Below the pieces are notes generated by a model. The model did not search any database, was not told the origin of the DNA, and worked only from the letters and a program-made list of their open reading frames with translations. Source: Neofamilia massiliensis (GTDB lineage: Bacteria; Bacillota; Clostridia; Tissierellales; Peptoniphilaceae). Taken from it: 64,000 nucleotides of DNA. The position numbers were made by a program, and so were the translations under genes. This document shows, piece by piece, positions 1,436-50,643 of the stretch. Where the stretch lies: positions 1 to 64,000 of the forward strand of contig NZ_CYUJ01000002.1 in NCBI RefSeq assembly GCF_001299475.1, given 5' to 3'. How positions within the stretch are numbered: the first letter of the stretch is position 1; each line of letters begins with the position of its first letter.

Positions 1436-4400
1436 TTGAACAAAAAACTTATTTCATTTTTGCTAGCTTTTATAATTTTATTTACTAGCTTACAACCAGT
1501 TATGGCCTTAAGCTCAGACAATTATAAAATAAAATGGCTAGTAGACAATAATTACGTAGAAGGAAGAGGAGAAGAGGGCTTAGAATTAGATAAAGCCATT
1601 ACCAGGGCAGAAATAACAAAAATGCTAGTAGTAATGGAAGGTCAAAGAGCAAAAGCAAAAGACTTAGAAAAAACTCCATCTAATTTTACAGATGTAAAAA
1701 TAGACCACTGGGCTAACGGCTATATAAACCTTGCCTATGACAAGGGCTATATTAAAGGCTATGAAGACCAAAGCTTTAGACCAGAAAACCAAATTACTTA
1801 CGAAGAAATAATAACCATTTTAGCCAGACTACACCCAAAATTCAAGGAAAGTTTTAGCCTAGGAGATGACTGGTCAAAAGACTTTATTAACTTTGCAAGA
1901 GAAAATGGAATTTTAAGAGACATAGATCTGGAAGGGGCCTATAAGGAAATTGCTATAAGACAAAAGGCCTTTGAATTAATATACAACCTTTATCACAGTA
2001 TAGACCAAGAAAACAAAATAGTTGTTGAAAATAAAAAACCAGCAAAGTCTACAGATAATAGCTGGTGGGATTGGGGCTTATTTTTAATTCCACCAATTAA
2101 AGAAGAAGAGACAAGACCAGTAGAGTCAACAACTTATTATGAAGTTAGATTTTATACAGACGGGAACCTTTATGCAAGAAGATCTGTAAAAGAAGGAGAC
2201 CAAGTAAATAAGCCGTCAAATCCATCTAAAACAGGATATAGTTTTATAGGATGGATAGATGACCAAGGTAGAGCCTTTGATTTTTCTACTAAAATATATA
2301 GGGATCAAAAGCTTTATGGCCAATTTATAGAAGATAAAATTGAAGAACCAAGTGAACCAAGAAATATTTCAATAGACCCAATAGGTCCAAGGACCTTTGA
2401 AGATGGATCTGAAGTTACCATCCCTCTATTTGTAAGAGATAAAAACGGCTTAAAAGTAAAGGCAGAACTAGAAGTAGAAGGCCAGCCACAAGGCCTAAAC
2501 CTAGAAGGCGAAGCCTTAAGAGGAACCCTAGCTCCACTAACTTGGGAAGAAGGCGAAAGTGAAAGAGTCTTCAATATAAAAGTTACAGCAACTTATGAAG
2601 GAGCTGAAACTAGTGAAGAATTTACCCTTACAATTACAAGAGCAGAAGAAAGCGAACCTCAAGTCACAAAACTAAAGTTTCAACTTGACTCATATGAGCT
2701 TCCGCTAGTAGATTCAAAAACAGCCATAGTATTTGTAGAGCCAACAGATATAGAAGTTACCTTTGAGTTAGAAAATAAAGAATTAGCAAAATTAGAAGAA
2801 ATAACAAGTGGCAATATTGGACGAAGGATTCTGCCACTAAAATCAGGAACAACAAAACTAGTAGCCAAGGCGGGAGATAAGATTTCTGAAGCAACTATAA
2901 TAATAAATCCAGTGAGAGTACACTTTCAAGCAAATGGTGGTGTTTTTGCAGATGGAAGTGACAAGTTAATAGTAAATTCAGACTTTGAAAAAATAAATGC
3001 ACCAGAAGAGCCAACAAGAGAAGGATATAAATTTGCAGGCTGGTATTTAGATGATAAATTCCAAAAAGAATTTGATCTAAATGTAAGTAAGGATATGCAA
3101 TTTTACAAAGATGCAAAAAAGGCCTTTACCTATGTCTATGCAAAATGGGAAGAAGCTAAGAATGATAAAATTACTGGAAAAGTTAGTTTCTTTGTAAAAA
3201 ATGAAAACCCTGATGAAAAATTAGTAAGTTCAATAAAACTAGTTGCTACAGCGGACAATAAGGAATATATATTTACAGAAAACCCTTATAACGAGCACTC
3301 TAAAAATAACCCTTTCACCTATAAGAAAGAAGGAGATAATGCTCTTCAATCAGGTCAGTATAACTTAATAATTGAGGGATTAAAAGAAAACGACAAAGTC
3401 AGTTTTAAAAATGTATCTAACAACAATAAGTCAACAATAGAAATTAATCCAAATCCAGGAAAAGGGTCTGACCAATTTTTAGTGACAATTAACTTTGATC
3501 AAAAAGGAGACAGAATTACTAGATTTATTGAAATTGAAAGAGCAGAAGATCCAGTAGAAGAAGGCCTAGTAAGTGGAAAGTATGTTTTAGTAGATGAAAA
3601 AGGCCAAGTGCCAGGAACTTTAGAAGGAACTTGGGTTACTAGGTCAACTGCAGATCCAGACCCAAGTACAATGACTTCATCTATTATGACCCTAGAAATA
3701 AGTGGAGACCAAGTAAAAATAAAGGACTCAAAGGGAAATTATTTGGCTCCAAAGGGCGGAAATAAAAATGGAATTAAGGCTGGAGACTACAGCTGGAAAC
3801 TTGTAAAAAATGAAGATGACACAATTTCCTTCCTTGGCCAAGGCGCTGACACTGTAGTATTTGCCAATAATACAGGAGACAATGGCAGTGGTTATAGGGC
3901 CTACAAGACTAGTACAGTAAATAACTATCCTGATACCTATCCAAGCAAATTTAATTTATATAAAATAGGTGGAGCTTCAGGCGAGGAAGATCCAAAACCA
4001 GATCCAGAAGAAGAAAATCCAAGTGAACCAACTACTAGCGTAGACCCACTAATAGATGAAAACTTAGACTTAAGCATAAATCCAGCTGATGTAAAATTTG
4101 AAAATGGCAAGCTAACAATTTATAATCAAGAAGAAGGAATGAACTTGGCTGTAGAGCTACCAACAGGAAAGATCTTAACAAAAAATGTTCCTTCCCATGG
4201 AAGATGGTCACCACTTCAAGGAACCTTCCCAATTTATCCAGGAGACAAAATAAAAGTCTTTAGATATGAAGGAAATGTTAGAGGTCCAGAAGTTGAAATT
4301 ACTGTAGAAGGTCAAGGAGATAAGAGACCAGCAGACCAAGTTTTAAGATATGGCAGACAACACTTCGCCTTTATACCAACAGCTAGGGACACAAGAATAG

Positions 4401-4633
4401 CCTACAGTACAGAGCCTTTCTTTACAGTAGAACTAGAAAAACCAGATGGAAGCTTTATAAATGTAGTTGCAACCACTCTAGGTCAAGCAAATTTTGACGG
4501 CCTAGTCCTAAAGGCAGGAGACACTTATAAGGTAAGGATTTTTGATAGAAATGGAAAACTAGTAGACCTAGCTGATTCAAATTTATTTATAGATCCTAGC
4601 AAAAATCAAAGTTCAATTAGAGTTTATAAATAA
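1436..4633 (+). CDS. SLH-domain surface protein with InlB B-repeats and Ig-like domains
   Basis: A secreted cell-wall protein of 1065 residues. Translation starts at TTG 1436, set by AGGAGG at 1423-1428 and followed by a signal peptide (KK, hydrophobic core, cleavage near VMA-LSS, about residue 25). Residues about 28-185 hold three SLH-like segments (for example FTDVKIDHWANGYI and GYIKGYEDQSFRPENQITYE), which in this family bind pyruvylated secondary wall polymers. Two Listeria/Bacteroides-type B-repeats follow (around residues 233-296 and 495-575, with GYSFIGWIDD and GYKFAGWYLDD). Between and after them lie Ig-like beta-rich segments. There is no LPXTG, so anchoring is through SLH. It is a single-gene unit with its own terminator. 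The ligand is unknown; adhesion or envelope structure is the reasonable inference. Confidence 0.9.
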   Translation: MNKKLISFLLAFIILFTSLQPVMALSSDNYKIKWLVDNNYVEGRGEEGLELDKAITRAEITKMLVVMEGQRAKAKDLEKTPSNFTDVKIDHWANGYINLAYDKGYIKGYEDQSFRPENQITYEEIITILARLHPKFKESFSLGDDWSKDFINFARENGILRDIDLEGAYKEIAIRQKAFELIYNLYHSIDQENKIVVENKKPAKSTDNSWWDWGLFLIPPIKEEETRPVESTTYYEVRFYTDGNLYARRSVKEGDQVNKPSNPSKTGYSFIGWIDDQGRAFDFSTKIYRDQKLYGQFIEDKIEEPSEPRNISIDPIGPRTFEDGSEVTIPLFVRDKNGLKVKAELEVEGQPQGLNLEGEALRGTLAPLTWEEGESERVFNIKVTATYEGAETSEEFTLTITRAEESEPQVTKLKFQLDSYELPLVDSKTAIVFVEPTDIEVTFELENKELAKLEEITSGNIGRRILPLKSGTTKLVAKAGDKISEATIIINPVRVHFQANGGVFADGSDKLIVNSDFEKINAPEEPTREGYKFAGWYLDDKFQKEFDLNVSKDMQFYKDAKKAFTYVYAKWEEAKNDKITGKVSFFVKNENPDEKLVSSIKLVATADNKEYIFTENPYNEHSKNNPFTYKKEGDNALQSGQYNLIIEGLKENDKVSFKNVSNNNKSTIEINPNPGKGSDQFLVTINFDQKGDRITRFIEIERAEDPVEEGLVSGKYVLVDEKGQVPGTLEGTWVTRSTADPDPSTMTSSIMTLEISGDQVKIKDSKGNYLAPKGGNKNGIKAGDYSWKLVKNEDDTISFLGQGADTVVFANNTGDNGSGYRAYKTSTVNNYPDTYPSKFNLYKIGGASGEEDPKPDPEEENPSEPTTSVDPLIDENLDLSINPADVKFENGKLTIYNQEEGMNLAVELPTGKILTKNVPSHGRWSPLQGTFPIYPGDKIKVFRYEGNVRGPEVEITVEGQGDKRPADQVLRYGRQHFAFIPTARDTRIAYSTEPFFTVELEKPDGSFINVVATTLGQANFDGLVLKAGDTYKVRIFDRNGKLVDLADSNLFIDPSKNQSSIRVYK

Positions 4634-4785: not shown

Positions 4786-4833
4786 TATTTTAATGAAAGC
4801 TGTTGCTTAGAAAATCATTTTAGGAGGGAGCAT

Positions 4834-6288
4834 ATGAAAAAAAGAGTTTTTGTTTATCTTTTAGCTATTTTAATGGTACTTACTGTTTTTAACGGCTTTG
4901 CTTATGCTGAAGAAGTTAATGAAGAAGAAGTTCCAGTAGTTGAAGATAACAGTGAAGAAGTAGAAGGCCTTGAGCTTTCTGATGAAAACATTGAAGATGC
5001 TGTTGAAGCTAGATATTATTATGGGAGAGAATTTTCTAATATTTCTGTTAGCAGATATTATGTAAGTGGTTATACTGATCCAAACGCAACAGTAAATCTT
5101 TACTGTTCAGCTGGAAATTATATAGCTTCTGCTCAAGCTGATAGTGATGGATATTTCTCTATCTATTATCCTAATGATCTTTATTATAATTACTATGATC
5201 TTGAAGGTGCATATTTAACTTCAACAAATGGAACTAGCAGGTCTATATATTCATCAGACCTTGACTGGGATTATTGGGATGGTAGATACTATGATTGGTA
5301 TGACTGGAGATACAGAGATTCTGATTATGGTTACTACGATTCTTATGGCAACTGGCACTACTATGACTGGTATTTAAATGATAGATATGGATGCTGGAAG
5401 GATGGATCTTGGTGCTGGTATGACAGGTACAATAATCCAGACTTTGGTTATTGGGAAAATGGCAAATGGTACTACTATGACTGGTATTACAATAGCGACT
5501 ATGGTTACTGGAAAGACGGAACTTGGTATTGGTATAACTGGTACAATGATGATGACTACGGCTACTGGAGAGATGGCAGATGGTATTGGTACGACAGATA
5601 CATCTACAATCCAGTTGCAAGTGAAGCCGCTGGCGGAACAGACTATGTAAGAGGCTACGGAGCTGGACCTTATGGGGATGTAATTGTACGTGACTATAAT
5701 GACAACTTCCTTGGTTCAACTACTGCAAACTCTGATGGAACTTTCTTTGTAGAAACAAACAGGTCCCTTGTTCCTGGCGAAACTTTAAAAGTAACAACAT
5801 CTTATAGAAATAGACTTAACGACTATACAACTATAACCGTTTCAGGTTCTTCTAGAACATTTACAAACAATAATTACACAAATGTATTTACAATAGGTTC
5901 AAAAACTTATACAAGTGTAGTTAATGGCGTAAAAGAAACTAAGACTATGGATGTTTCGCCTTATACTGAAAATGGAAAGACCATGCTCCCACTAAGGTAC
6001 ATTGCAGATTCACTAGGCTATGAAGTAACCTATGACAATAATACTAAAAATGCTGTATTTATCAAAGGTTCATCAGCTATAGTAATAAATCTTTATTCTA
6101 AAGACTTTACAGTTGATGGAAAAACCTATAGCCTATCAACTGAACCTAAGACAGTAAACGGAAGAATTATGCTTCCTGTTTCTGAAATAGCTAAGGCCCT
6201 AGAACTTGATTCTGGAAATCTTGGATCAGGCAAGGCAATAGAATGGGATAATTTAAACAAACAAGTTATAATTTCTACAAGAAGATAA
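4834..6288 (+). CDS. Secreted Tyr/Trp-rich repeat protein with C-terminal stalk domain
   Basis: A 484-residue secreted protein. ATG 4834 follows AGGAGG. The signal peptide ends near AYA-EE (residue 25). An acidic stretch is followed by an Ig-like segment with GYTDPNATVNLY (about 66-137). Then come five tandem 19-20-residue repeats of the form [Y/F]GYW-x-[D/N]G-x-WYWYDWY (anchors at residues 165, 185, 204, 223, 242), dominated by Tyr, Trp, Asp and Gly. A second Ig-like segment (about 268-337) and a copper-amine-oxidase-N-like stalk domain (about 350-484, with MLPLRYIADSLGYEV and IEWDNLNKQVII) complete it. The repeats recall choline-binding or wall-binding GxW-YY repeats but are distinct. Neither LPXTG nor SLH is present. 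Function unknown; carbohydrate or wall binding is an inference. Confidence 0.88.
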   Translation: MKKRVFVYLLAILMVLTVFNGFAYAEEVNEEEVPVVEDNSEEVEGLELSDENIEDAVEARYYYGREFSNISVSRYYVSGYTDPNATVNLYCSAGNYIASAQADSDGYFSIYYPNDLYYNYYDLEGAYLTSTNGTSRSIYSSDLDWDYWDGRYYDWYDWRYRDSDYGYYDSYGNWHYYDWYLNDRYGCWKDGSWCWYDRYNNPDFGYWENGKWYYYDWYYNSDYGYWKDGTWYWYNWYNDDDYGYWRDGRWYWYDRYIYNPVASEAAGGTDYVRGYGAGPYGDVIVRDYNDNFLGSTTANSDGTFFVETNRSLVPGETLKVTTSYRNRLNDYTTITVSGSSRTFTNNNYTNVFTIGSKTYTSVVNGVKETKTMDVSPYTENGKTMLPLRYIADSLGYEVTYDNNTKNAVFIKGSSAIVINLYSKDFTVDGKTYSLSTEPKTVNGRIMLPVSEIAKALELDSGNLGSGKAIEWDNLNKQVIISTRR

Positions 6289-6298
6289 ATTTAGACAA

Positions 6299-6343
6299 AA
6301 AAATATCCTTAAGGCATTTAAGTCCTTGAGGATATTTTTTTGC
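6299..6343. terminator. Bidirectional terminator between convergent genes
   Basis: AAATATCCTTAAGG...CCTTGAGGATATTTT hairpin with A-run on the left and T-run on the right, sited between the convergent genes that end at 6288 and 6346. Confidence 0.8.
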
Positions 6344-6345
6344 TT

Positions 6346-38608: not shown

Positions 38609-40922
38609 TCTACTAAGTGTACTTTTAAAGAAAGAGAAAAAGAGATTTACTGTTGAGGATACAATTCCCTATATAAGAATGTTACCAGAGGGCATTTGCC
38701 AGTTAGATGAAAAAAATTATTCAAAGACAATTTCATTTCAAGATATAAATTACCAGTTGGCATTGGAAGAAGACAGAGATTTAATCTTTAACCAATTTGC
38801 CAACTTTTTAAATTCTTTTGATCCAAGTGTCCACATTGAACTTTCATATGTAAATCAATTAGGAAGAAATAGAGACCTACAAGATGCAATTAAAATTGCT
38901 GATAAGGGAGACTTCTATGACGATGTAAGAAAAGAGTTTAGGGAGATGTTAAAGCTTCAACTTGCAAAGGGCAATAACGGACTTAAAAAGATGAAGTATA
39001 TAACCTTTACCACAGAAGCCGATAACCTAGAGCAAGCAAGAGCAAAGTTAAATAGACTTGAAGTAGATATTTTATCTAACTTTAAATCTATGGGAGTAAG
39101 AGCAGAAAGCCTTGATGGCGAAGAAAGATTAAGACTTGTTCACGATATGTTAAATCCAGACAAAAACTTTAATTTTTCATATAAAGATTTGAAGAAGAAA
39201 GAGTCTACAAAATCACATATAACTCCCAATATATTTAATTTTGCACCAGCAAATAATTTAAAATTTGGGAAATTCATCGGAGCAGTAAGCCATTTTCAAA
39301 TACTTGCGAGTGAGTTATCAGATAGAATGTTATCTGAGTTTTTAGATATTGATGACAATATTTATGTAGCTTTTCATATAGATGTAGTTGAACAAGCAGA
39401 AGCTATTAAACTCATTAAGAGAAAAAACACAGACCTAGACAGAATGAAAATTGAAGAACAAAAGAAAGCAGTACGTGCTGGATATGATATGGATATTATT
39501 CCATCAGATATAAATACTTTTGGAGCTGATGTTAAGTCCATGTTATCTGACTTACAAAATAGAGATGAAAGGCTCTTTGTAGTTACCATAGTAATGATGA
39601 ATTTTGCTAGGACTAATCAAAAATTAGAAAACACTATTGCACAAATCTCATCGATTGCAAACAGACATAATTGTCAGGTGAAAAGATTATCTCATCAACA
39701 AGAGCAAGGACTTGTTTCTGTCTTACCTTTAGGAGTTAATCAAGTCGAAATAAAAAGATTTTTAACTTCATCATCAACGGCAGTCTTTATGCCTTTTACA
39801 ACAGAAGAATTATTTATTGATTCAGCAAATTCCTTGTATTATGGCTTAAACGCTCTTAGCCAAAACTTGATTATGGCAGATAGGAAGAAACTAAAGAACC
39901 CTAACGGACTAATATTAGGTACACCAGGTTCTGGTAAATCTTTCTCGGCAAAGAGAGAGATGGCAAATGCAATTCTTGTAACAGATGATGATGTAATTAT
40001 TTGTGATCCTGAAGGCGAGTATTCAAATCTTGTAAAACAGTTTAATGGAGAAGTTATTAAAGTTTCAGCAAAATCAAAGGACTACCTAAATCCACTAGAT
40101 ATTAATATGAACTATGGAGATGGGGACGCGCCTTTAAAGGATAAGGCAAACTTCATAATGTCCATGCTTGAACTTGTAGTAGGAGGATCTGGTCTTACTG
40201 CTGCAGAAAAATCTGTTATAGATAGGTGTTTACCAAAGATATATCAAAAATATTTTGAAGACCCAAAACCAGAAAATATGCCAATATTAGGAGATTTATA
40301 CGATATGCTCCTATCTCAAGAAGAGGGAGTTGGTAGGAAGCTCGCAACAGAAATGGAAATTTATGTTAAAGGAAGTCTTAATGTCTTTAATAATAGGTCA
40401 AATGTTGATCTAAATAGGCAATTGCTCTGCTTTGATATAAAAGAGCTAGGAACACAACTTAAAAAAATAGGTATGCTTGTAATTCAAGACCAGGTTTGGA
40501 ACAAGGTTTCCTTAAATAGAGGAAGCAAGTCCACAAGATACTATATAGACGAGTTCCACCTTTTATTAAAAGATCCACAAACTGCTTCATATTCAGTAGA
40601 AATCTGGAAAAGATTTAGAAAATGGGGTGGTATTCCAACAGGCATAACTCAAAACGTAAAAGACCTTTTAACAAGTCAGGAAATTGAAAATATCTTTGAT
40701 AATACAGACTTTGTTCTAATGTTAAATCAAGCATCTGGAGATAGAGATATTCTTGCTAAGAAATTAAAAATATCGCCTTATCAGTTAAACTATATTACTA
40801 ATTCAAACGCAGGGGAGGGACTATTATTCTTTGGAAATACTATTGTTCCCTTTATAGATAAATTCCCTAAAGACACTATGCTATATAAGCTAATGACAAC
40901 TAAACCAGAAGAAGCTAAGTAG
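38499..40922 (+). CDS. VirB4-like T4SS ATPase
   Basis: An 807-residue ATPase. TTG 38499 is supported by AAAGGAGG five bases before it, giving a 110-bp overlap with prgI. The N-terminal VirB4 domain spans about 60-440. Walker A LGTPGSGKSFSAKREM is near 476-490, Walker B-like RYYIDEFHLLL follows, and GITQNVKDLL is present downstream. It energises pilus/channel assembly and substrate transfer. It is placed as in all Tn1549-like modules. Confidence 0.94.
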   Translation: MKQRKKQISDLNLREKQLKKDRKEVRRLKTKKEPTNSLLSVLLKKEKKRFTVEDTIPYIRMLPEGICQLDEKNYSKTISFQDINYQLALEEDRDLIFNQFANFLNSFDPSVHIELSYVNQLGRNRDLQDAIKIADKGDFYDDVRKEFREMLKLQLAKGNNGLKKMKYITFTTEADNLEQARAKLNRLEVDILSNFKSMGVRAESLDGEERLRLVHDMLNPDKNFNFSYKDLKKKESTKSHITPNIFNFAPANNLKFGKFIGAVSHFQILASELSDRMLSEFLDIDDNIYVAFHIDVVEQAEAIKLIKRKNTDLDRMKIEEQKKAVRAGYDMDIIPSDINTFGADVKSMLSDLQNRDERLFVVTIVMMNFARTNQKLENTIAQISSIANRHNCQVKRLSHQQEQGLVSVLPLGVNQVEIKRFLTSSSTAVFMPFTTEELFIDSANSLYYGLNALSQNLIMADRKKLKNPNGLILGTPGSGKSFSAKREMANAILVTDDDVIICDPEGEYSNLVKQFNGEVIKVSAKSKDYLNPLDINMNYGDGDAPLKDKANFIMSMLELVVGGSGLTAAEKSVIDRCLPKIYQKYFEDPKPENMPILGDLYDMLLSQEEGVGRKLATEMEIYVKGSLNVFNNRSNVDLNRQLLCFDIKELGTQLKKIGMLVIQDQVWNKVSLNRGSKSTRYYIDEFHLLLKDPQTASYSVEIWKRFRKWGGIPTGITQNVKDLLTSQEIENIFDNTDFVLMLNQASGDRDILAKKLKISPYQLNYITNSNAGEGLLFFGNTIVPFIDKFPKDTMLYKLMTTKPEEAK

Positions 40923-40929
40923 GTGTGAT

Positions 40930-43509
40930 ATGGATAAAAAACTAAAAAAAGATTTTCAAAAGAAAATTATACGAAATAGGGACGCTCCTGAAAAGAATAT
41001 TGATAGTAAACTTGTTCATTCAGATGATTATACCAATAAGATAATTAAAACTAAGGATAGGTTCGGAGATAAAATTTCAGAAAAAGAATCTAAACTTATT
41101 CATGAGAATGTATTAGCTAAAGATCAAAAACAAGATAAACTAAAAGATTTTCAGAAGGCTAAAAACAAGGAAAGAATTAGAAAAGAAGTTTTAGATAATA
41201 AGGATACGGCTGAAGAAACAAAACAAGCTAATCTTGAAATAAGGACAGATGAAAGCTTTAAACTTGATGCAGAGTTAGATGTAGACTTCAAAAAAGTAAA
41301 TTTTGACAGTGAAAACAGTAGAAATATTAATTCTAATAAACTAACAACAGATGATATTTCAGCTAACGCTCAACCAATAAGCAATAAGAAGCCATCAAGT
41401 AAAAGACAAGTTCTTAAAAATTATGAGGATAAACTTATCCATAGTAAGGATAAATTCCAAGACAAAATCAACGATAAAGAGTCTAAGCGAATCCATACAA
41501 GCGAAGATAAACCTATCGAAGCAAAGAAAAGCAATAGAATATATAGAAAAGATAAGCTTGTTAAAGATGAAGTAAGCAAGAACGAGAGTAATACTAATAT
41601 CGATAAAAAGCAAAAGCAGAAACTTTATCAAGAAAAAAAGTTTAGAGATAAGGAAAAAATTTCTAATGAAATAGATATAGAAAAAAAGCTAAGTGAAGTT
41701 AATACAGATAAGAATTTTGATAATCCTGATCTTAAAGACAATAATCAAGAATTTATAAAAGATGAAAAGGAAACAAGCCTTAAATCTTCAGAACAAAAGA
41801 AAGTTAACAAAAAGAAGACTTACTACAAAAGAAAAAATTATGAAAGTGATAAATTCACTCGAAAGAAAATTGATGACTTAAAAAATGAATCTAAGAAAGG
41901 TACAAAGAAAGATTCTAAGAAAGCACAAGATGTTAAAGACTTTATCTCAGATAAAAAGATTGGAGAGCTTGAAAAGTCTAAAAGCAAGCTAAAGGATAAT
42001 ATCCTAAAAAACAAAACTAAAGGAAGTCTATCTTCTGGGGTTTTATTATCTGGAGCTAAGTCTTCAGAGTTAGTGAGAGATTATCTAAGTTCAGGATCTG
42101 ACAATACTGGTGTAGAATCTGGAGAAAAGGCCGCTAATGTAAGTTCTAAACTCCAGCATGGAATAAGGAAGTATAAGTTAGACAAAAAGAAAAAGTCCTT
42201 AAAAAGGCTATCTAAACTCGATAAGAAAATAAAAAAGAGAAAAAGCAAGTTGGAGTTTAAAAGTGGCTTGGAAGATCTAAAAAAGTCAGAATCATATATA
42301 AAGAAAAATAGATTTAAGAAGTTTTACCAGAGAAAACAAATGAAGAGCATGATAGCTAAAAAGCACGAAACAAGACTGGTCGATAGAGTTAAAAAAGCTA
42401 TTTTAAGTTTAGGTAAGGCTTCTAAAGAGCTAATAGTAAGAAAAAGCAAGATGGTTCTATTTCTAGTAATAGGACTAGGTCTTATGCTATCAATCATGAT
42501 TGGTGGTGGAAGTGTTGGTATGAGTGGACTAAGCAACTCAGTAAACTCAGTAATGACAACAACATACCTATCACAAGATACAGTTTTAAGTGAAGTTAAT
42601 CAAGAGTTTTCATCAATGGAGTATGACCTACAATCACAGATCGAAAGTGTAAAAGCAAGTCATCCTGGATATGACGAATATATCATAAATAAAGAAGGAG
42701 AAATTGGTCATAATACCCATGAACTTTTATCCTATATAACTTCAAGATGTGGAGAAGTAAAATCAGCATCTGAAGTAAAAGGAATTTTAAAGGAACTTTT
42801 CGATAAGATGTATAAGCTTGATTTTAAGGAAGAAATTGAAATTAGAACAAGAACAGTAGCAAGAACAAGATATGATAGTCGTGGTAATCCTTATACTAGC
42901 TATGAAAAAGAAGAGTACGAATATAAAAAGTTAATTGTAACTTTAAAGAAAAAAGAAATGGATGAAGTTGTTAGGGAAATATTTAAAGATTATCCAGACA
43001 ATGTAGTTCATTATGAAGCTCTTCTTGAAGCTAAGGGGAATATGGGAGATGTTTTTGGATCAGGTAATGGCGACTTAGGAGAAATAGTAGACAATCCAAA
43101 CTTTGGAAATCCTGGTCTTGCTTTTGATTCTGAAACTGCCAAAGCTTTATTTAATGAAGCAGAAAAACATATAGGCAAAAGATATGTGTTTGGAGCAAGT
43201 GGACCATCTAACTTTGACTGTTCAGGTTTTGTATGTTGGTCATTTACAAAGTCTGGTGTAAAGAGTATGCCAAGAACAACTGCATGGAGAATATACAAAG
43301 ACTATTGTAATCCAGTAAGTCCAAGTGAAGCTCAACCTGGAGATATTATATTTTTTCACTCAACATATAACAGTGGAACACCAATATCTCACGTAGGAAT
43401 ATACGCAGGTAATGGAATGATGATTCACGCAGGAGATCCAATTCAATACACATCAATAAATTCAAAATATTGGAAATCACACTTTTATGGTTTTGGAAGA
43501 CCAAGATAG
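40930..43509 (+). CDS. CD1108-like mobile-element protein with NlpC/P60 hydrolase domain
   Basis: An 859-residue protein. The first 480 residues are Lys/Asp/Glu/Ser-rich and cytosolic, with at least two degenerate copies of a K-L-I-H-S-x-D-x-F-x-D-K-I-x-[D/E]-K-E-S-K motif. One membrane helix (KMVLFLVIGLGLMLSIMIGGG, about 508-530) is followed by an extracellular linker and a C-terminal NlpC/P60 domain (about 735-859) with FDCSGFVCWSF (catalytic Cys), SHVGIYAGNGMMIHAGD (His) and GFGRPR. It opens peptidoglycan for the conjugation channel. It starts 7 bp after virB4. Confidence 0.9.
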   Translation: MDKKLKKDFQKKIIRNRDAPEKNIDSKLVHSDDYTNKIIKTKDRFGDKISEKESKLIHENVLAKDQKQDKLKDFQKAKNKERIRKEVLDNKDTAEETKQANLEIRTDESFKLDAELDVDFKKVNFDSENSRNINSNKLTTDDISANAQPISNKKPSSKRQVLKNYEDKLIHSKDKFQDKINDKESKRIHTSEDKPIEAKKSNRIYRKDKLVKDEVSKNESNTNIDKKQKQKLYQEKKFRDKEKISNEIDIEKKLSEVNTDKNFDNPDLKDNNQEFIKDEKETSLKSSEQKKVNKKKTYYKRKNYESDKFTRKKIDDLKNESKKGTKKDSKKAQDVKDFISDKKIGELEKSKSKLKDNILKNKTKGSLSSGVLLSGAKSSELVRDYLSSGSDNTGVESGEKAANVSSKLQHGIRKYKLDKKKKSLKRLSKLDKKIKKRKSKLEFKSGLEDLKKSESYIKKNRFKKFYQRKQMKSMIAKKHETRLVDRVKKAILSLGKASKELIVRKSKMVLFLVIGLGLMLSIMIGGGSVGMSGLSNSVNSVMTTTYLSQDTVLSEVNQEFSSMEYDLQSQIESVKASHPGYDEYIINKEGEIGHNTHELLSYITSRCGEVKSASEVKGILKELFDKMYKLDFKEEIEIRTRTVARTRYDSRGNPYTSYEKEEYEYKKLIVTLKKKEMDEVVREIFKDYPDNVVHYEALLEAKGNMGDVFGSGNGDLGEIVDNPNFGNPGLAFDSETAKALFNEAEKHIGKRYVFGASGPSNFDCSGFVCWSFTKSGVKSMPRTTAWRIYKDYCNPVSPSEAQPGDIIFFHSTYNSGTPISHVGIYAGNGMMIHAGDPIQYTSINSKYWKSHFYGFGRPR

Positions 43510-43523
43510 AAAGGAGATATTAT

Positions 43524-43763
43524 GTGAATAGAAAACTTATTAGTATTAGGAACAAAAAGAAAAAAATAGAAGAGAAATTAAACGATTTAAATGCAAAATA
43601 TAAGGAAATTTGCGATGAAGAAATACAAGTTGAAAATGAAGAAATCATTGTAACTCTTAGGAGGAACAATATTAGCTTGGAAGAATTAATGGAGAAAATT
43701 AATGATAGAAAAAGAGAAGAAAAATTAAAAGAAAAGGAGAACATTCATAATGAAGAAATTTAA
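43524..43763 (+). CDS. DUF4315 family protein
   Basis: A 79-residue coiled-coil protein. The start is GTG 43524 (MNRKLISIRNKKKKIEEKL), with AAAGGAG 7-8 bp upstream; a longer in-frame extension from 43470 lies inside the previous gene and lacks a site. The pattern KIEEKLNDLNAKYKEICDEE, then EIIVTLRRNNISLEELMEKI, fits DUF4315, which is found between the P60 protein and DUF4366 in these elements. Confidence 0.82.
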   Translation: MNRKLISIRNKKKKIEEKLNDLNAKYKEICDEEIQVENEEIIVTLRRNNISLEELMEKINDRKREEKLKEKENIHNEEI

Positions 43764-45333
43764 TACGAACAGACTAAGAGCCTTTTTTATGGCTCTTTTA
43801 TTAGTTTTAACATCAACCTCAACTACTAATGTACTAGCTAAAGCTGATGATACAGATGGCAGTAAAAAAGTGATAGAAAGTTCTATTAGTAAAATTAGTG
43901 ATTTAGAAAATCAGATCAAAGACTTAAATGATAAGAAACAAGAAGACCAATCAAAGATAGATGAATTAAAGGAAAAGTTAGAATCTTGCAAAGATAATGG
44001 GGAGAAACTAAAACAAGAAAAAGCTAAGCTAGAAGAAGAGATTAGAGATAAAGACAATAAGATAGCTCAATTGAATAAAGAAATTGAGGATCTTAAAAAC
44101 TCTAACAATGATGAACTAGTAGCAGAAATTACTCAGCTTAAAGATGAATTAAAAAGATTACAAGATGAAAATGAAAAACTAAAAGAAGATTATTCATCTA
44201 CAAAATGGGAGTTAGAAGCTGAGAAAGAGAATACCGATAAAAACGAAAATAAAATCAAAGAAATGCAAGAAAAGCTCGAGTCTTTAGAAGGAGAACTTGC
44301 AAAGAAGACTAAAGAAATTGAGGATAAAGACAATAGAATTAAGGACTTAGAAAAAGCCCTTGATGAAAAAGATACTAAGATAAAAGACCTAGAGTCTAAA
44401 AAGAAAGAGATAGAAAAGACTAAGTCAGAATGCTGTAAGAAAATTGAAGAGCTTCAAAAGGCTATTGATAGTTTAAAAGAATCTTCTGAAAAGACTAAAA
44501 AAGAATTAGAAGATAAGATTAAAGAACTAGAAGAAAAACAAAAATCTTCTGATGAAGAAATTAAAAAGCTAAAAAAAGAGTTAGATAAGAAAATTGAAGA
44601 AGCAAAGAAGTTAATCGAGGAAGCAAATAAAAAATCGAAAGAAGAACTTGAAAAGCAAGCTAAAGATGAAAAAGATAAAAATCTAAATCAAGACTTATCT
44701 AAAAAATTAGATGAACTTCTAAAACTCCAAAAAGAAAACAAAGAAAAGAAAGAAGATAAGAAATCTCAAGATAAGAAGTGGGATGAACTTTTGAAAGCTG
44801 ATGACAAGAATATCCTAAATCAATTTGATCTTAACAAGATGAAAGAGCAAGAGGAACAACATGACAAAAAACAAGTTAAAGATGAAAAAGAATTTGCAGT
44901 TTTTCAAGTAGACAAAAACTTCTATAACATTATCAACAAAGATGGTAAGACAACAGTCTATATGGATGTAAAAGCTTATGTAGATCAAGGAAGAACTATG
45001 ATTCCAGTAAGATATATTGCTTATACTCTAGGTTTTAATGTTGAGTATGACAACTCTACTCGTGAAGCTATTTTCTCAAATAAAGAGAATAATATCTTAG
45101 CTAAAAAGACATTAAGACTAAATATTGATACTGGTATTATGAAAGATTCAGATGGAAAGGTCTACAACTCAGATGTTAAGCCAGTGATTATAAATGGAAG
45201 AATTCATGCTTCAATTTCAAATATTGCTAAAGCTTTTGGAGCAAGTCATGGAGATATTAAAGATGGTAAAAACCAAACAATAGAATGGGATAATGCTAGA
45301 AAAGCAGTCTATGTATTTAAAAATGTAAAATAA
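43750..45333 (+). CDS. Secreted coiled-coil protein with copper-amine-oxidase-N-like stalk domain
   Basis: A 527-residue secreted protein. The signal peptide (1 to about 31, ending NVLA-KA) is followed by a very long Lys/Glu coiled coil (about 40-375) and a C-terminal stalk domain (about 385-527, with GRTMIPVRYIAYTLGFNVEY, VKPVIINGRI and IEWDNARKAVYVF). The same domain closes the chromosomal repeat protein at 4834. It overlaps DUF4315 by 14 bp and precedes DUF4366, so it belongs to the transfer operon. A rod-like surface protein that could aid mating-pair contact is inferred. Confidence 0.88.
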   Translation: MKKFNTNRLRAFFMALLLVLTSTSTTNVLAKADDTDGSKKVIESSISKISDLENQIKDLNDKKQEDQSKIDELKEKLESCKDNGEKLKQEKAKLEEEIRDKDNKIAQLNKEIEDLKNSNNDELVAEITQLKDELKRLQDENEKLKEDYSSTKWELEAEKENTDKNENKIKEMQEKLESLEGELAKKTKEIEDKDNRIKDLEKALDEKDTKIKDLESKKKEIEKTKSECCKKIEELQKAIDSLKESSEKTKKELEDKIKELEEKQKSSDEEIKKLKKELDKKIEEAKKLIEEANKKSKEELEKQAKDEKDKNLNQDLSKKLDELLKLQKENKEKKEDKKSQDKKWDELLKADDKNILNQFDLNKMKEQEEQHDKKQVKDEKEFAVFQVDKNFYNIINKDGKTTVYMDVKAYVDQGRTMIPVRYIAYTLGFNVEYDNSTREAIFSNKENNILAKKTLRLNIDTGIMKDSDGKVYNSDVKPVIINGRIHASISNIAKAFGASHGDIKDGKNQTIEWDNARKAVYVFKNVK

Positions 45334-45347
45334 GAAAGGATAGAAAA

Positions 45348-46211
45348 ATGAATAAGAGCATTAAACGAGGAGTAGCCATAGCGTTACTCCTTTTTACATT
45401 TACAGTACCAGCAACTACATTTGCGATGACAAATGAAGGACAAATAGAGAATCAAAAGGAATCAATCTATGAACCACAAAAAGAAGAATTTGAAAAAATA
45501 TTGAAAGATGATGTTTTTACACCGTCAAAAGAAGAAATTCCTTATCAAGATGTTCCAAGAATACCAGGAAATACAAGTGAAGCAAATAAGCCTTCAAATA
45601 ATCCTCCTAAGAAAACACCACTTGTAAAAGGTGGTAATACTAAGGCAGTAAATAATCTTGCGACTGGGGAAAATAAGGCAAGAGGTTCAGTAATTGAAAA
45701 TGTAGATAGGAATGGAAAAGATATTACACCAAGTGGAGATACAGAAAAAGATAAAGAAAATCCAGTAGATGTTAGACAATTTTTAACATTTCAAACTAAA
45801 AGTGGAAAAACTATGCACCTAATAGTGGATCACTCATCAAATCAAGATAATGTAAGATTATTAACAGAAGTAGGAGAGCAAGACCTACTTAATATGATTG
45901 AATCAGAAGATAAAAATACTATAAAGGTTGAAGAGCCTAAGAAAGAAGAAGTAAAAAAAGAAGAACCTAAAACTGTTCCAGTAAAAGAAGAAAAGAAAAG
46001 CGGGATAGGCTCATTTTTAATTGTTGCACTTGTAATTGGAGGAGTTATAGGAGCAGGATATTATTTTAAGGTAGTCAAAGCCAAGGAAGATAAAATGTTG
46101 GAAGACTTTGAAGAAGATGATGAGGATTATATTAGTGAGTCAGAAGATGAATCTGATGATGAAGAAAGTCATGAAGAATCTTTAGATGATGAAGACGATG
46201 AACTATTATAA
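45348..46211 (+). CDS. DUF4366 / CD1107 family mobile-element protein
   Basis: A 287-residue membrane protein. It has a signal peptide (ending TTFA-MT), a Pro/Lys-rich linker, the DUF4366 core RQFLTFQTKSGKTMHLIVDHSSNQDNVRLLTEVGEQDLLNMI (about residues 144-185), one membrane helix SFLIVALVIGGVIGAGYYF and a strongly acidic tail of about 40 residues. The family is confined to conjugative elements and follows DUF4315. Confidence 0.92.
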   Translation: MNKSIKRGVAIALLLFTFTVPATTFAMTNEGQIENQKESIYEPQKEEFEKILKDDVFTPSKEEIPYQDVPRIPGNTSEANKPSNNPPKKTPLVKGGNTKAVNNLATGENKARGSVIENVDRNGKDITPSGDTEKDKENPVDVRQFLTFQTKSGKTMHLIVDHSSNQDNVRLLTEVGEQDLLNMIESEDKNTIKVEEPKKEEVKKEEPKTVPVKEEKKSGIGSFLIVALVIGGVIGAGYYFKVVKAKEDKMLEDFEEDDEDYISESEDESDDEESHEESLDDEDDELL

Positions 46212-46232
46212 GGATATTAAATTTAAGTACAA

Positions 46233-46272
46233 TTGAATTTTTGTCACGGATATGATACAATATCCGTGACAA
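46233..46272 (+). promoter_or_regulatory. abiE promoter with overlapping 13-bp inverted repeat
   Basis: TTGAAT (46233-46238) and TACAAT (46256-46261) are 17 bp apart. A perfect inverted repeat, TTGTCACGGATAT (46241-46253) and ATATCCGTGACAA (46260-46272), spans the spacer and -10. AbiEi antitoxins are known to bind inverted repeats in their own promoter and repress it, so this is the likely autoregulatory operator. Confidence 0.8.
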
Positions 46273-46284
46273 AGGAGAATTGTA

Positions 46285-46896
46285 ATGAGTTCATATATGG
46301 AAATAATATCAGATAAAATAAATGATTTTGACTCACATAAAGTGTTTTTTGCAAATGACTTTTTAGATATTGCATCTAATGCTACGGTTAGACAGATATT
46401 AAAAAGATTAGCAGATGAAAGAAAAATTCAGCGTATCATTGATGGTTTCTATTACAATCCAAGATACAGTGAATTAATTGGAGAGTACGAAGCAGTATCA
46501 ATTCACGAGTTAGCACTTGCCATAGCAAGAAAATACAATTGGAATATTGCACCATATAATAGTACAGCCTTAAACTTATTAGGACTTTCTACACAAGTTC
46601 CAACTCACTATAAATATATATCTAGTGGAAGATACAAAGAATATAAAATCGGAGATACCATTTTAGAGTTTAAAAAAGTAAATCCAGGAGAAATTGCCAA
46701 TATGTCTTTGAAGACAGCGACAGTTATTCAAGCAATTAAGTCTTTAGGTAAAGAAAATATAACCAACGAAGTTATACAAAAGATAAGAGAAAACTTAAGT
46801 GAAAAAGAAAGAAAAGACTTAATGAATGAGTCAAAATCAGTTCCATCATGGATATATGAAGTGATAAGAGAAATTTCTGAGGGCAAAAATGAATAA
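46285..46896 (+). CDS. AbiEi-type antitoxin (DUF6088-like)
   Basis: A 203-residue protein. The N-terminal winged helix (KVFFANDFLDIASNATVRQILKRLADERKIQRIIDGFY, about 20-58) is followed by the AbiEi antitoxin C-terminal domain (YNWNIAPYNSTALNLLGLSTQVPTHYKYISSGRYKEYKIG). ATG 46285 follows AAGGAG. It overlaps the toxin gene by 8 bp. In type IV TA systems the antitoxin represses its operon and counteracts the nucleotidyltransferase. Confidence 0.88.
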   Translation: MSSYMEIISDKINDFDSHKVFFANDFLDIASNATVRQILKRLADERKIQRIIDGFYYNPRYSELIGEYEAVSIHELALAIARKYNWNIAPYNSTALNLLGLSTQVPTHYKYISSGRYKEYKIGDTILEFKKVNPGEIANMSLKTATVIQAIKSLGKENITNEVIQKIRENLSEKERKDLMNESKSVPSWIYEVIREISEGKNE

Positions 46897-47872
46897 GTTT
46901 TATATAGAAAACAAAGAAGACTTAAGAGTTTTAATAGTCAATACTGCAAGAAAGAAAAATATATCTGAAGCAGTCATTGAAAAAGACTATTGGGTTACTT
47001 TTATCTTAGATTATCTATTTAATGAAAATAAATGGAAAGAATATTTAACCTTTAAGGGTGGCACATCACTTTCAAAATGTTTTGGACTCATTGAAAGATT
47101 TTCTGAAGATATAGATCTAATCTTAGATTGGCGATTATTAGGATATGAAGAAAGAGAACCATGGATTGAAAGGTCAAATACCAAGCAAGATAAATTCAAT
47201 AAAGAAGTTAACGAAAATACAGAACTGTTTTTAAGAGATGAATTTTTGAAAATTTTAGAACAAGATTTAAAGAGCGTAGACTTTGAATTTTCAATAGATA
47301 AAATAGATCCACAAACAATTCTGTGTAAATATCCTAAAATCTTTGAATCTAATTATTTGACACAAAATATAAGGCTTGAAATAGGAAGCCTTGCAGCATG
47401 GACACCTGCAATCGATGTTGAAATATTACCAATAATTAGTGAAGCATATCCAAATGTATTTAAAGAAAAAACTAATATAAGAACAGTCTCAGCAGAGAGA
47501 ACCTTTTGGGAAAAGGCAACTATACTTCATCATGAAGCGAATAGACCAGAAGCTTCTCCTATGCCCCATAGGTATGCAAGACACTTTTATGACTTATATA
47601 AAATAGCAAATTCAGATTTTAAAAACAAAGCCTTAGAGGATAAAGAATTACTAAAGAAAGTGACTGAATTTAAAATGAAATTCTACCCTAGAAAGTGGGC
47701 AAGGTATGAAGATGCATTAAATGGTAGATTGAAGTTAGTTCCAAGAGAGTTTCGATTTTCTGAAATAGAAAAAGATTATAAGGCTATGGAAGAAATGATA
47801 TATGGAGAATATCCAAAATTTGATGAAATTATAAAAGTTCTTAAAGAACTAGAAAAAGAAATTAATAAGTAA
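46889..47872 (+). CDS. AbiEii/AbiGii-type nucleotidyltransferase toxin
   Basis: A 327-residue member of the nucleotidyltransferase superfamily. The signature FKGGTSLSK (residues 56-63) and SEDIDL (72-77, catalytic acidic residues) are followed by ERTFWEKATILHHEA and RHFYDLYKIA. AbiEii-like toxins add nucleotides to tRNA acceptor ends and arrest growth. Paired with the preceding antitoxin it likely stabilises the element and can give abortive phage defence. Confidence 0.92.
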   Translation: MNKFYIENKEDLRVLIVNTARKKNISEAVIEKDYWVTFILDYLFNENKWKEYLTFKGGTSLSKCFGLIERFSEDIDLILDWRLLGYEEREPWIERSNTKQDKFNKEVNENTELFLRDEFLKILEQDLKSVDFEFSIDKIDPQTILCKYPKIFESNYLTQNIRLEIGSLAAWTPAIDVEILPIISEAYPNVFKEKTNIRTVSAERTFWEKATILHHEANRPEASPMPHRYARHFYDLYKIANSDFKNKALEDKELLKKVTEFKMKFYPRKWARYEDALNGRLKLVPREFRFSEIEKDYKAMEEMIYGEYPKFDEIIKVLKELEKEINK

Positions 47873-47877
47873 TAGAA

Positions 47878-47909
47878 TTCTCCCGAAAATAATACGATAT
47901 TCGGGAGAA
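47878..47909. repeat. 10-bp inverted repeat after the AbiE toxin gene
   Basis: TTCTCCCGAA (47878-47887) and TTCGGGAGAA (47900-47909), with an AT-rich loop of 12 and no T-run. It is more like an operator or stabilising stem than a terminator. Confidence 0.5.
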
Positions 47910-47916
47910 ATACTTT

Positions 47917-47947
47917 GAGCGAGAGATAAATCTTTCGCTCTTTTTTT
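47917..47947 (+). terminator. Terminator between abiE and topB
   Basis: GAGCGAGAGA-taaa-TCTTTCGCTC followed by TTTTTTT. Confidence 0.8.
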
Positions 47948-47963
47948 ATTTATGGAGGTATTA

Positions 47964-49685
47964 ATGAAGTTAGTAATAGCAGAGAAACCAAGTGTAGCAG
48001 TTACAATTGCAAAAGTAATTGGAGCAAGAACAAGAAAAAACGGATATTATGAGGGAGGTGGATACATTGTTTCCTGGTGTGTAGGTCATTTAATTCAAAT
48101 GGCAAGTCCAGAAAGACACGACGAAAAATGGAAGAAATGGACAATAGACACTCTTCCTATAATTCCAGAAGAATATATTTATGAAGTATCTAAAAGCACT
48201 AAGAAACAATATGGAGTTTTAAAGAAACTTTTAAACGATAAGAACATCGACACAGTTATAAATGCTTGTGATGCTGGAAGAGAGGGAGAACTTATGTTTA
48301 GGCTCGTATATAAACAAGCTAAAAGTAAGAAGAAGATTCAAAGACTTAGGATATCTTCAATGGAAAACAAGGCTATTGAAGATGGATTTAGAAATCTTAA
48401 AGACGGAGAAAACTTTGAAGAATTATATAGATCAGGAAGTGCAAGAGCAATTCCGTATTGGCTGGTGGGAGTGACTCTAACTCGGCTTTATTCTTGCATT
48501 TACAAGGAAACACATTCAGTTGGTAGAGTACAAACACCAACTTTATATCTAATAGCTAAAAGGGATAGTGAAATAAACCTATTTAAGAAGCAAAAATATT
48601 ATACAGTTGACCTATCTTATGGAGAATTAAAACTTGTATCTGATAGGATTGATAAAATTGAAGTTGCAGAGCAACTTTTAAATCTACTAGAAGATGAAAT
48701 AGTTATTACAGAGGTAGAAGATAAAGAAATAAGCACAAAACCAGATAAGCCTTATGATCTCACTACCTTACAAAGAGAAGCAAATAAATATTTTGGATAT
48801 TCAGCAAAAGATACTTTAAACCTGGCACAAAGTTTGTATGAAAAGAAGCTAATCACATACCCAAGAACAGATAGTAGGTATTTAACCGATGATATGGTTA
48901 CTACTATGAAAGAATTATTGGAAGGACTTGAAGAAGATTTTAAAATCAATGAATCAAACTTTAAGTCTATTTTTAATTCATCTAAAGTTACAGACCACTA
49001 TGCAATTATTCCTACTATATCAGGTATTGGAAAAGCCAAAGATTTAACTGATAAAGAAAGTAAAATCTATAATCTAATTAAGGATAAATTACTTGCTTCA
49101 TGTTCGGATAACTTAAAGGAATCTAGTAGAAAAATCAGATATGAATATGATAAATTTAACTTCAATGCAAGTGGCAAGACTATAATCGATGAAGGTTATA
49201 CCAAGTATCTAAAGAGCTATGGAAAAGAAAAACAAAAAAATGAATTACCAGATATAAAGACTGGAGATAAAATTAAGCTAACTTCTAAAAATATATCGGA
49301 GAAATTCACCAAAGCCCCAAGTCATTATAATGAAGATACACTTTTAAAGACTATGGAGAATGCAGGAGTAGAATCTTTGGATAAAGCTATAGAAGTAGAA
49401 AGAAAAGGCTTAGGAACACCAGCTACAAGAGCAGGAATTATCGAAAATCTTATCCATAAGGATCTTATAAGAAGAGATAAGAAAAATCTACTTGTAACAG
49501 AAAAAGGCAATAGACTTGTATCGATTGTAGAGGATAAGTTTAAATCAGCAGAAACAACATCTGAATGGGAAATGAAACTTGCAAAGATTAGCTCTGGCGA
49601 AGTTGATAAAGAAGACTTTTTAAGAGAAATAGAAGATAGTATAAAGGAGCTTGTAGATAGGTACAAGAATAATCTAAATGAATAA
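47964..49685 (+). CDS. topB: DNA topoisomerase III
   Basis: A 573-residue type IA topoisomerase. ATG 47964 (MKLVIAEKPSVAVTIAKVIG) is set by GGAGGT; a longer in-frame form from 47952 starts inside the ribosome site region. It has the TOPRIM domain with NACDAGREGELMF, the active-site Tyr in KKLITYPRTDSRYLTDDM (about residue 299) and the C-terminal ATRAGIIENLIHKDLI. Plasmid/ICE TopB enzymes relieve strands during element replication and transfer. The stop overlaps the methyltransferase start by 8 bp. Confidence 0.94.
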   Translation: MKLVIAEKPSVAVTIAKVIGARTRKNGYYEGGGYIVSWCVGHLIQMASPERHDEKWKKWTIDTLPIIPEEYIYEVSKSTKKQYGVLKKLLNDKNIDTVINACDAGREGELMFRLVYKQAKSKKKIQRLRISSMENKAIEDGFRNLKDGENFEELYRSGSARAIPYWLVGVTLTRLYSCIYKETHSVGRVQTPTLYLIAKRDSEINLFKKQKYYTVDLSYGELKLVSDRIDKIEVAEQLLNLLEDEIVITEVEDKEISTKPDKPYDLTTLQREANKYFGYSAKDTLNLAQSLYEKKLITYPRTDSRYLTDDMVTTMKELLEGLEEDFKINESNFKSIFNSSKVTDHYAIIPTISGIGKAKDLTDKESKIYNLIKDKLLASCSDNLKESSRKIRYEYDKFNFNASGKTIIDEGYTKYLKSYGKEKQKNELPDIKTGDKIKLTSKNISEKFTKAPSHYNEDTLLKTMENAGVESLDKAIEVERKGLGTPATRAGIIENLIHKDLIRRDKKNLLVTEKGNRLVSIVEDKFKSAETTSEWEMKLAKISSGEVDKEDFLREIEDSIKELVDRYKNNLNE

Positions 49686-50643
49686 GGTAAAAATATTAGA
49701 GCTTTTCGGCGGCATAGGTGCTATTAGAAAGGCTTTTATTAATTTAAAGATACCTTATGAAGTTGTTGATTATGTAGAAATAGATAAGGCTTGTGTTAAA
49801 TCATATAATGAACTTTATGGAGAAGATTATAAGCCAAAATCAGTAGTAGGATATAAAGTACCTAATGAGAATATAGACTTAATAATGCATGGAAGTCCTT
49901 GCCAAGACTTTTCAAGAATTGGAAAAAAGCAGGGAGGAGTGAAAAACTCAGGCACTAGATCAAGCTTACTATTTGAAACAATTAGAATAATCAAAGAAAT
50001 GAAAGATAAACCTAAATGGATAATTTGGGAAAATGTAAAGGGAGTCCTTGATAGAAATATGAGGGACTCCTTTTTTATTTATCTAAAAGAGCTAGAAAAC
50101 CTTGGATATGAAAGCAAATATGAAATCTTAAATGCAATGGACTTTGGGATACCTCAAAAAAGAGAAAGGATATTTGTTGTTTCATGTCTTGGAGCAAATA
50201 ACTTTTCTTTTAATAAATTGGAGAGGAAAGAAACTAGACCACTAAGTGAATTTTTAGAAAAGGATGTAAGTGAACTTTACACAATGACTCAACCTTATAT
50301 GCTCAAATTTTTAAATAAAGGCATAGATAATACTTTTAGAGGGCGACTCAAAGTAATTAAAGATTTTTCTTATACTATTTCTACAAAACAAATGAGAGTA
50401 CCCAATTCTGGAATAATAGATATTGGAAATGGTCAGTATAGGTATTTAACAGAAAGAGAATGCCTAAGACTAATGGGTTTTGATGATAGTGATATTAACA
50501 AACTAGAAGAAGCACATCCAAGAAGAAAAAATTGTGCCTCAAGCAAACTATATAAGCAGGCCGGCAATTCTATTGTGGTTGATGTTTTAATGGCTATTAT
50601 AAAAGAAATTCATAGAATGGAGGTAGAAAATGCAAGTAAATGA
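49678..50643 (+). CDS. DNA (cytosine-5-)-methyltransferase
   Basis: A 321-residue C5 methyltransferase with all main motifs: [27 protein letters not shown] with catalytic Cys75, [27 protein letters not shown] and [16 protein letters not shown]. The target-recognition region is about 190-260. No restriction enzyme gene is adjacent, so it is an orphan that could protect the element from host restriction. It overlaps both topB and the helicase gene. Confidence 0.93.

Follow-up and report, generated by a model that had tools for sequence, protein, structure and literature searches.

The window analysed here, a 64,000-nucleotide stretch of DNA from Neofamilia massiliensis, encodes a secreted protein of 484 residues that carries five tandem 19-residue units, preceded by a degenerate sixth, between two Ig-like domains. 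In most of these units tryptophans are mirrored about a two-residue [D/N]-G turn, and together with a low-confidence structural model this arrangement suggests that the units are Trp-zipper-like β-hairpins. The gene (4834-6288; all features are on the forward strand unless stated) starts with an ATG preceded by a ribosome binding site read directly from the sequence (AGGAGG, 4822-4827) and encodes, in order, a signal peptide, a Big_6 domain, the aromatic repeats, a second Big_6 domain and a PF07833 domain. A sequence-only reading of this DNA had described a secreted protein with five Tyr/Trp/Asp-rich repeats of 19-20 residues, flanked by two Ig-like segments and followed by a stalk domain, and each of these points is borne out below.

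The repeat region covers residues 141-259 (nucleotides 5254-5610). The row runs from unit 1 (residues 164-182, 5323-5379) to units 4 (222-240, 5497-5553) and 5 (241-259, 5554-5610); between them lie unit 2 (184-202, 5383-5439), whose Cys187 and Cys194 mirror about the D190-G191 turn, and unit 3 (203-221, 5440-5496), which contains WENGKW. The degenerate unit 0 ahead of them (141-163, 5254-5322) was aligned by eye. The majority pattern is DYGYW-x-DG-x-WYWYDWY-x-N, with one additional residue preceding unit 2. Three of the five units match the full motif GYW-x-[DN]G-x-WY-x-Y exactly; the departures are an additional turn residue in unit 1 and Cys at two positions in unit 2. BLOSUM62 self-similarity per residue reached 2.42 at an offset of 19 and 2.44 at an offset of 38, whereas 5000 shuffles, scored at all offsets between 5 and 44, gave 1.48 at most, so that the 19-residue period stands far above shuffled sequence. 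Tyr (27%), Asp (18%) and Trp (16%) dominate the region; Phe, Trp and Tyr together make up 44% of it, against a maximum of 21% for any 119-residue stretch in the window's other frames of at least 150 residues. The region includes 22 Asp in 119 residues and has a net charge of -12. Two open reading frames that overlap the repeat, at 5243-5719 on the reverse strand and 5378-5650 on the forward strand, were taken as its shadows.

Regarding the remainder of the protein, a signal peptide was recognized by eye at residues 1-25 (4834-4908), with probable cleavage at AYA|EE, and residues 2-23 were modelled as a helix in the low-confidence AlphaFold2 model of the full protein. The first Big_6 domain (PF17936) extends approximately over residues 68-140 (5035-5253) and the second approximately over 5632-5868, their limits being drawn by eye from an alignment; the best Pfam stretch of the second lies at residues 278-323 (5665-5802). 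The PF07833 (Cu_amine_oxidN1, 'stalk') domain occupies residues 363-459 (5920-6210; E 5.1e-24). Both assignments exceed the Pfam cut-offs, with 84.7 bits against 24.2 for PF07833 in the whole protein and 49.4 bits against 27.6 for Big_6 over two stretches, and these two were the only Pfam families above cut-off in the 484 residues. NCBIfam returned three matches for the whole protein, each below its own cut-off and all outside the repeat. A sequence search of the PDB gave two weak matches to the whole protein, taken for chance (E 0.49 and 0.78), and one weak match to the stalk part alone (E 0.017), a 118-residue chain named LM2363; no match to the whole protein was found among phage records. 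By a division of the mature protein made by hand, the PF07833 part is its only basic section (pI 8.75 for the stalk part, 4.1 for the repeat region). Downstream of the gene, a hairpin followed by a T run (6302-6342) forms a probable two-way terminator between convergent genes; it was found by eye and is absent from the output of a simple terminator scan, and the folding energy of 6295-6345, -24.2 kcal/mol, was equalled by none of 200 shuffles. Directly upstream, at 1436-4633, lies a gene for a 1065-residue protein that, by eye, resembles SLH domains combined with InlB/Flg_new-type repeats; given this resemblance, the genome may also have an S-layer-type wall anchor.

The hairpin reading draws on the core W-x-[DN]-G-x-W, which is present in four of the five units, whereas shuffles of the sequence hold 0.07 copies on average and none of 5000 reached four; it should be noted that the four copies are duplication products and hence not independent. 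The core occurs nowhere else in the window (stop-to-stop frames of at least 100 residues, 21,973 residues), and the corresponding DNA pattern gave seven matches in the whole genome, four of them inside this gene, compared to two for a backward control. When [DN]G is taken as a two-residue turn, the flanking tryptophans face each other in units 2-5, and the second pair out from the turn is Tyr-Tyr in units 3-5 and Cys187-Cys194 in unit 2. These two cysteines are the sole Cys of the repeat region and are exact cross-strand partners in the hairpin register. Position pairs that mirror about any of six turns number 36 of 7021, a guide value, as the turns were picked from the same sequence. Disulfides form less commonly between cysteines that occupy hydrogen-bonded positions of this sort. 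In unit 5, an Arg stands opposite an Arg beside the turn.

This core recalls the tryptophan zippers. In trpzip2 (SWTWENGKWTWK), a designed hairpin solved by NMR with a type I' Asn-Gly turn, the inner core is likewise W-x-[N/D]-G-x-W with the Trp pair around a two-residue turn, and WENGKW of unit 3 is the exact trpzip2 core (PMC2705519, in excerpt). They differ in that trpzip2, a synthetic peptide of 12 residues, has two Trp-Trp pairs, whereas the window repeat occurs in tandem in a natural protein and the place of the second pair on that face is taken by a Gly opposite a Trp or a Tyr, the intervening pair being Tyr-Tyr. At the level of sequence, a cross-strand Trp pair flanks a two-residue turn in four of the five units. 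A trpzip is defined by four cross-strand Trp per hairpin (PMC10593748, in excerpt), whereas each of these units has a single Trp-Trp pair. Among the titles and abstract beginnings surveyed, a body of literature with subscription papers mostly outside its scope, neither this repeat nor a natural tandem Trp zipper was reported.

AlphaFold2 run on the single sequence of residues 133-269 placed strands at 184-189/192-196, 202-208/211-213, 222-227/230-235 and 241-246/249-254, flanking the [DN]G of units 2-5, at a low mean pLDDT of 51; in the model of the full protein the mean was 48 and almost all of the repeat fell below 50. The sequence-only reading had suggested structure prediction as a check for a β-solenoid; the sequence points to Trp-zipper-like hairpins, which need not form a solenoid. 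Foldseek found no match to the repeat model, itself of low confidence, at E ≤ 0.001. The best VIA-align match, to the TCP domains of CPAP/Sas-4, had a Z of 7.4, within the stated background of 7-8, with OspA and Morn1 lower, and for that reason these matches were not taken to indicate kinship.

The origin of the array can be approached from its relatives. The gene content was judged to fit Peptoniphilaceae. At E ≤ 1e-10, 82 of 130 genomes of the family match the protein, and most of the matches listed span PF07833 only. Of 391 genomes from the class, 19 matched, at E ≤ 1e-25, a profile of 12 aligned members (the window protein, L002 and L011-L020); seven of the 19 lie outside the family, and in these the match starts at profile position 450 or later, namely in the stalk domain. 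The N. massiliensis genome encodes one further protein, L002, that matches over the Ig and stalk parts (49% over residues 212-479), and most of the remaining matches involve the stalk domain. An IS3-type transposase-like frame, recognized by eye (L002 2651-3373, reverse strand), adjoins the gene of this paralogue.

Big_6 and PF07833 are present in all 12 aligned members, and the 11 relatives, which belong to the same bacterial family, share with the window protein the linker slot between the Ig domains, aromatic in 11 of 11. Their linkers differ from that of the window protein in being 19-44 residues long, with no 19-residue period visible by eye, compared to 126 residues. In these 11 relatives, whose slots were anchored by hand and which were chosen for having an Ig domain before the stalk and with L021-L039 left out, the linker is 21-41% aromatic versus 9-17% elsewhere in each protein; the corresponding values are 41% and 13% in the window protein. 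Further linkers were read in L108 (37% aromatic), in L110 (32 residues, 25% versus 11% elsewhere) and in L109, whose protein ends at the contig end and whose linker is the exception with 4%; in total, 13 of 14 relatives read have an aromatic, Tyr-rich linker in the same place. In L025 the N-terminal part is aromatic and no slot was anchored. Since the slot is usually Tyr-rich in relatives, the window repeat would represent a lineage-specific periodic enlargement of it.

The relaxed motif [WY]-x-[DN]G-x-[WY] was counted in 11 slots chosen by hand, a set that excludes the linkers of L002, L011, L012, L013, L015 and L019 and the first-Ig-domain loops of the window protein, L002, L011, L012 and L014; in seven of the 11, the window's among them, no more than 12 of 5000 shuffles held as many copies, and the other four show no such enrichment. 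Seven further slots, counted without shuffles, gave one copy each in two cases and none in five. As the motif is missing from many slots, it is not a rule of the family. Several relatives have a second aromatic insertion within the first Ig domain. In L020, from another genus, this slot (residues 251-301) holds two 17-residue copies around GYWYDGKWYDYYDYYN, with GYWYDGKWY inside, and the first-Ig-domain insertion of L019 contains one GYWYNGKWY. Judged from these copies, the same core seems to have been expanded in parallel in L020, in a different slot.

The same comparison bears on the most serious alternative, in which the region would be a disordered, aromatic, low-complexity 'sticker' that promotes nonspecific adhesion or self-association; it would form no defined hairpins, and the period would be a by-product of duplication. 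Slots of relatives that are rich in Tyr, Gly and Asn and differ in both length (19-44 residues) and sequence fit this explanation, as do the low confidence of AlphaFold2 and the absence of [WY]-x-[DN]G-x-[WY] from the L109 and L110 slots. Yet a mere sticker accounts poorly for a unit spacing fixed at 19 residues, for Trp and Cys pairs mirrored about the turns and for the low nonsynonymous change against a saturated synonymous background (see below), and we hold it to be an unlikely explanation, albeit one to be taken seriously.

Next to the hairpin reading, membership of a known repeat family had to be weighed. No described family was found in Pfam (nothing at E ≤ 10, PF01473 and MORN included), in PHROGs or in the PDB searched with a repeat profile (nothing at E ≤ 10), in line with the suggestion in the sequence-only reading that the repeat may be novel. 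The same reading had noted a superficial resemblance to choline-binding repeats in a different register and with added Asp, and this description stands: what is shared in sequence is a short [DN]G-x-WYY core. Choline-binding repeats consist of a hairpin of about 14 residues and a linker of 6-7 residues, with the consensus TGW-b-[KQ]DNGSWYYLN-x-SG-z-M (PMC4929436, in excerpt), and the likeness would extend to aromatic units of about 20 residues built as a hairpin plus a 6-7-residue linker. In choline-binding repeats the hairpins build a solenoid whose choline site comprises up to three aromatic residues. However, they have six residues between the two Trp, whereas the window units have four, a turn region two residues shorter that implies different cross-strand partners. 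The window units also lack the linker Gly and Met of choline-binding repeats and are Asp-rich. Membership of PF01473 was rejected by sequence, as there is no Pfam match and the consensus is not followed.

Divergent descent, in which a repeat of the CW_binding_1 superfamily would have lost its sequence match but would still form the solenoid and surround its ligand with aromatic residues, is improbable in our judgement. Besides the hairpin-plus-linker layout (PMC4929436, in excerpt) and the [DN]G-x-WYY core, it can draw on a model built from 24 choline-binding units of relatives, against which the best unit scored 3.6 bits, aligned over 7 residues only, and the joined units 3.9 bits, values that 18 of the 975 shuffles and 29 of the 950 column permutations with a score attained, respectively; LytA also takes ranks 10, 17 and 27 in the Foldseek list, but at E 0.52 or worse and on the low-confidence model. 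Against it stand the differences in Trp spacing and linker, the silence of Pfam at E ≤ 10, and PF01473 itself, which at E ≤ 0.001 gives nothing in the N. massiliensis genome but is positive above cut-off in 8 of 130 genomes of the family. The resemblance is best read as a faint one that reflects a shared hairpin solution; among known kinds, the choline-binding repeats come closest.

MORN repeats (PF02493) share the G-x-W-x-[DN]-G core, and the weak structural matches include MORN sheets, which are single-layer hairpin sheets (Morn1 chains, VIA-align Z 5.9 and lower, from the low-confidence model). They differ in that the MORN model has 23 positions and that the collected MORN units have G-x-G after the core. 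PF02493 was not found in the own genome, while 10 of 61 genomes were positive at E ≤ 0.01, and our own MORN model gave 2.5 bits, reached by 43 of 979 scored shuffles, with 42 of 965 permutations for the joined units (for the choline-repeat and MORN models, respectively, 25 and 21 of 1000 shuffles and 50 and 35 of 1000 permutations were unscored and are omitted from these counts). With no match to the model, MORN membership was rejected by sequence.

Regarding function, the reading that we favour, tentatively and at somewhat less than even confidence, is that the row of tandem hairpins offers an adhesive or glycan-binding surface, aromatic and acidic, on a wall-associated and perhaps dimeric protein. 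The secreted envelope protein would display five (or six) tandem β-hairpins between its two Ig-like domains, which may serve as spacers for the aromatic strip. In each 19-residue unit, about 12 residues would form a hairpin around a two-residue [D/N]-G turn, stabilised in the manner of a trpzip by cross-strand Trp-Trp at the turn, Tyr-Tyr (once Cys-Cys) and Gly opposite an aromatic residue, and about seven Asp/Asn-rich residues would connect it to the next. Aromatic and acidic side chains would be presented on both faces of the row. Aromatic residues combined with Asp and Asn side chains are typical of sugar-binding surfaces, and from such a surface we infer that glycan binding or self-association would be the most likely job. 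Multivalent adhesion could then involve glycans as the most probable ligand, through ring stacking and Asp/Asn hydrogen bonds, or alternatively like arrays on neighbouring molecules. Teichoic acid, being anionic, is a less likely ligand because of the net charge of -12 and the pI of 4.1 of the repeat region. The C-terminal PF07833 domain may provide wall retention and perhaps dimerisation. In a Paenibacillus SOD, PF07833 is the dimerising domain (PMC10432803, in excerpt), and elsewhere in the N. massiliensis genome a stalk-like domain heads L007, a protein read by eye as amidase-like.

The acidic residues also allow a different role, a metal array in which the Asp-rich linkers (DDD, NDD) would bind Ca2+ and make the stretch that separates the two Ig domains more rigid. 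The 22 Asp and the net charge of -12 would suit such an array, and the adjoining Ig domain has a weak match to the NCBIfam Ca_tandemer model (21.4 bits against a cut-off of 50); but the positions of Asp within the linkers vary between units, and Pfam is silent on the repeat, so that we regard calcium binding as very improbable.

Whether the repeat units are recent copies was judged from their DNA. The 114-nt double units are only 61-74% identical, and the pooled pS and pN over six pairs among units 2-5 are 1.04 and 0.24, where a pS near or above 1 denotes saturation and the six pairs, which share members, are not independent. Because synonymous change is saturated at such a pN, the protein pattern of the units looks old and under selection. 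Neutral, functionless growth by replication slippage, to which the tandem arrangement and the restriction of the exact motif array to the own genome and G151 (there in another slot) would lend themselves, is highly improbable given copies with just 61-74% of their DNA alike, saturated pS with a pN of 0.24 and a reading frame kept open.

A 33-base pattern for GYWx[DN]GxWYxY was found in 2 of 130 genomes of the family, three times in the own genome and twice in G151. In wider genome contigs it gave single matches in three stretches (L043, L044 and L045), rejected as further repeats since their frames, of 18, 417 and 91 codons, hold no repeat; viral contigs gave none, and a pattern-based search of genome contigs for related loci yielded 19 stretches and no confirmed relative. 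Used as a protein query, the repeat matched 1 of 398 genomes of the phylum, its own, and 2 of 61 genomes in a search against relatives, the second through L010 (E 0.0056), where the match falls in a 103-codon frame with no repeat and was rejected as a carrier. Plasmid records gave no match. Within these scans, the public part of which may omit records close to the window's genome, the repeat is lineage-restricted.

It is conceivable, if rather doubtful, that the region is a natural tandem Trp-zipper-like array grown from a Tyr-rich linker and represents a new class of glycan-binding or self-assembly repeat in one anaerobic Firmicutes lineage, with a small parallel in L020. Should the hairpin reading hold, nature would have converged on a motif that designers built for stability and strung copies of it together into a surface for binding or assembly; the case would further show how a surface-protein linker can grow into a binding domain, and would supply the design of glycan binders or materials with a compact aromatic repeat. 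Were the region merely a sticky linker, it would be an extreme case of a habit of the family.

A stalk-like part also occurs elsewhere in the window. Positions 40000-50000 belong to a conjugative element; these 10 kb match the Anaerococcus prevotii plasmid NC_013164.1 at 94.8% identity over their whole length and Aerococcus tenax CP127381.1 at 95.4% identity over 82%, with a VirB4-like ATPase and a topoisomerase 3 under the match. Within it, a 534-codon frame at 43729-45330 encodes a coiled-coil protein with a stalk-like C-terminal part (44899-45315). Frames of 534 or 790 codons with near-equal scores recur across many of the family's genomes, and there is a second copy at G000:C3:122037.
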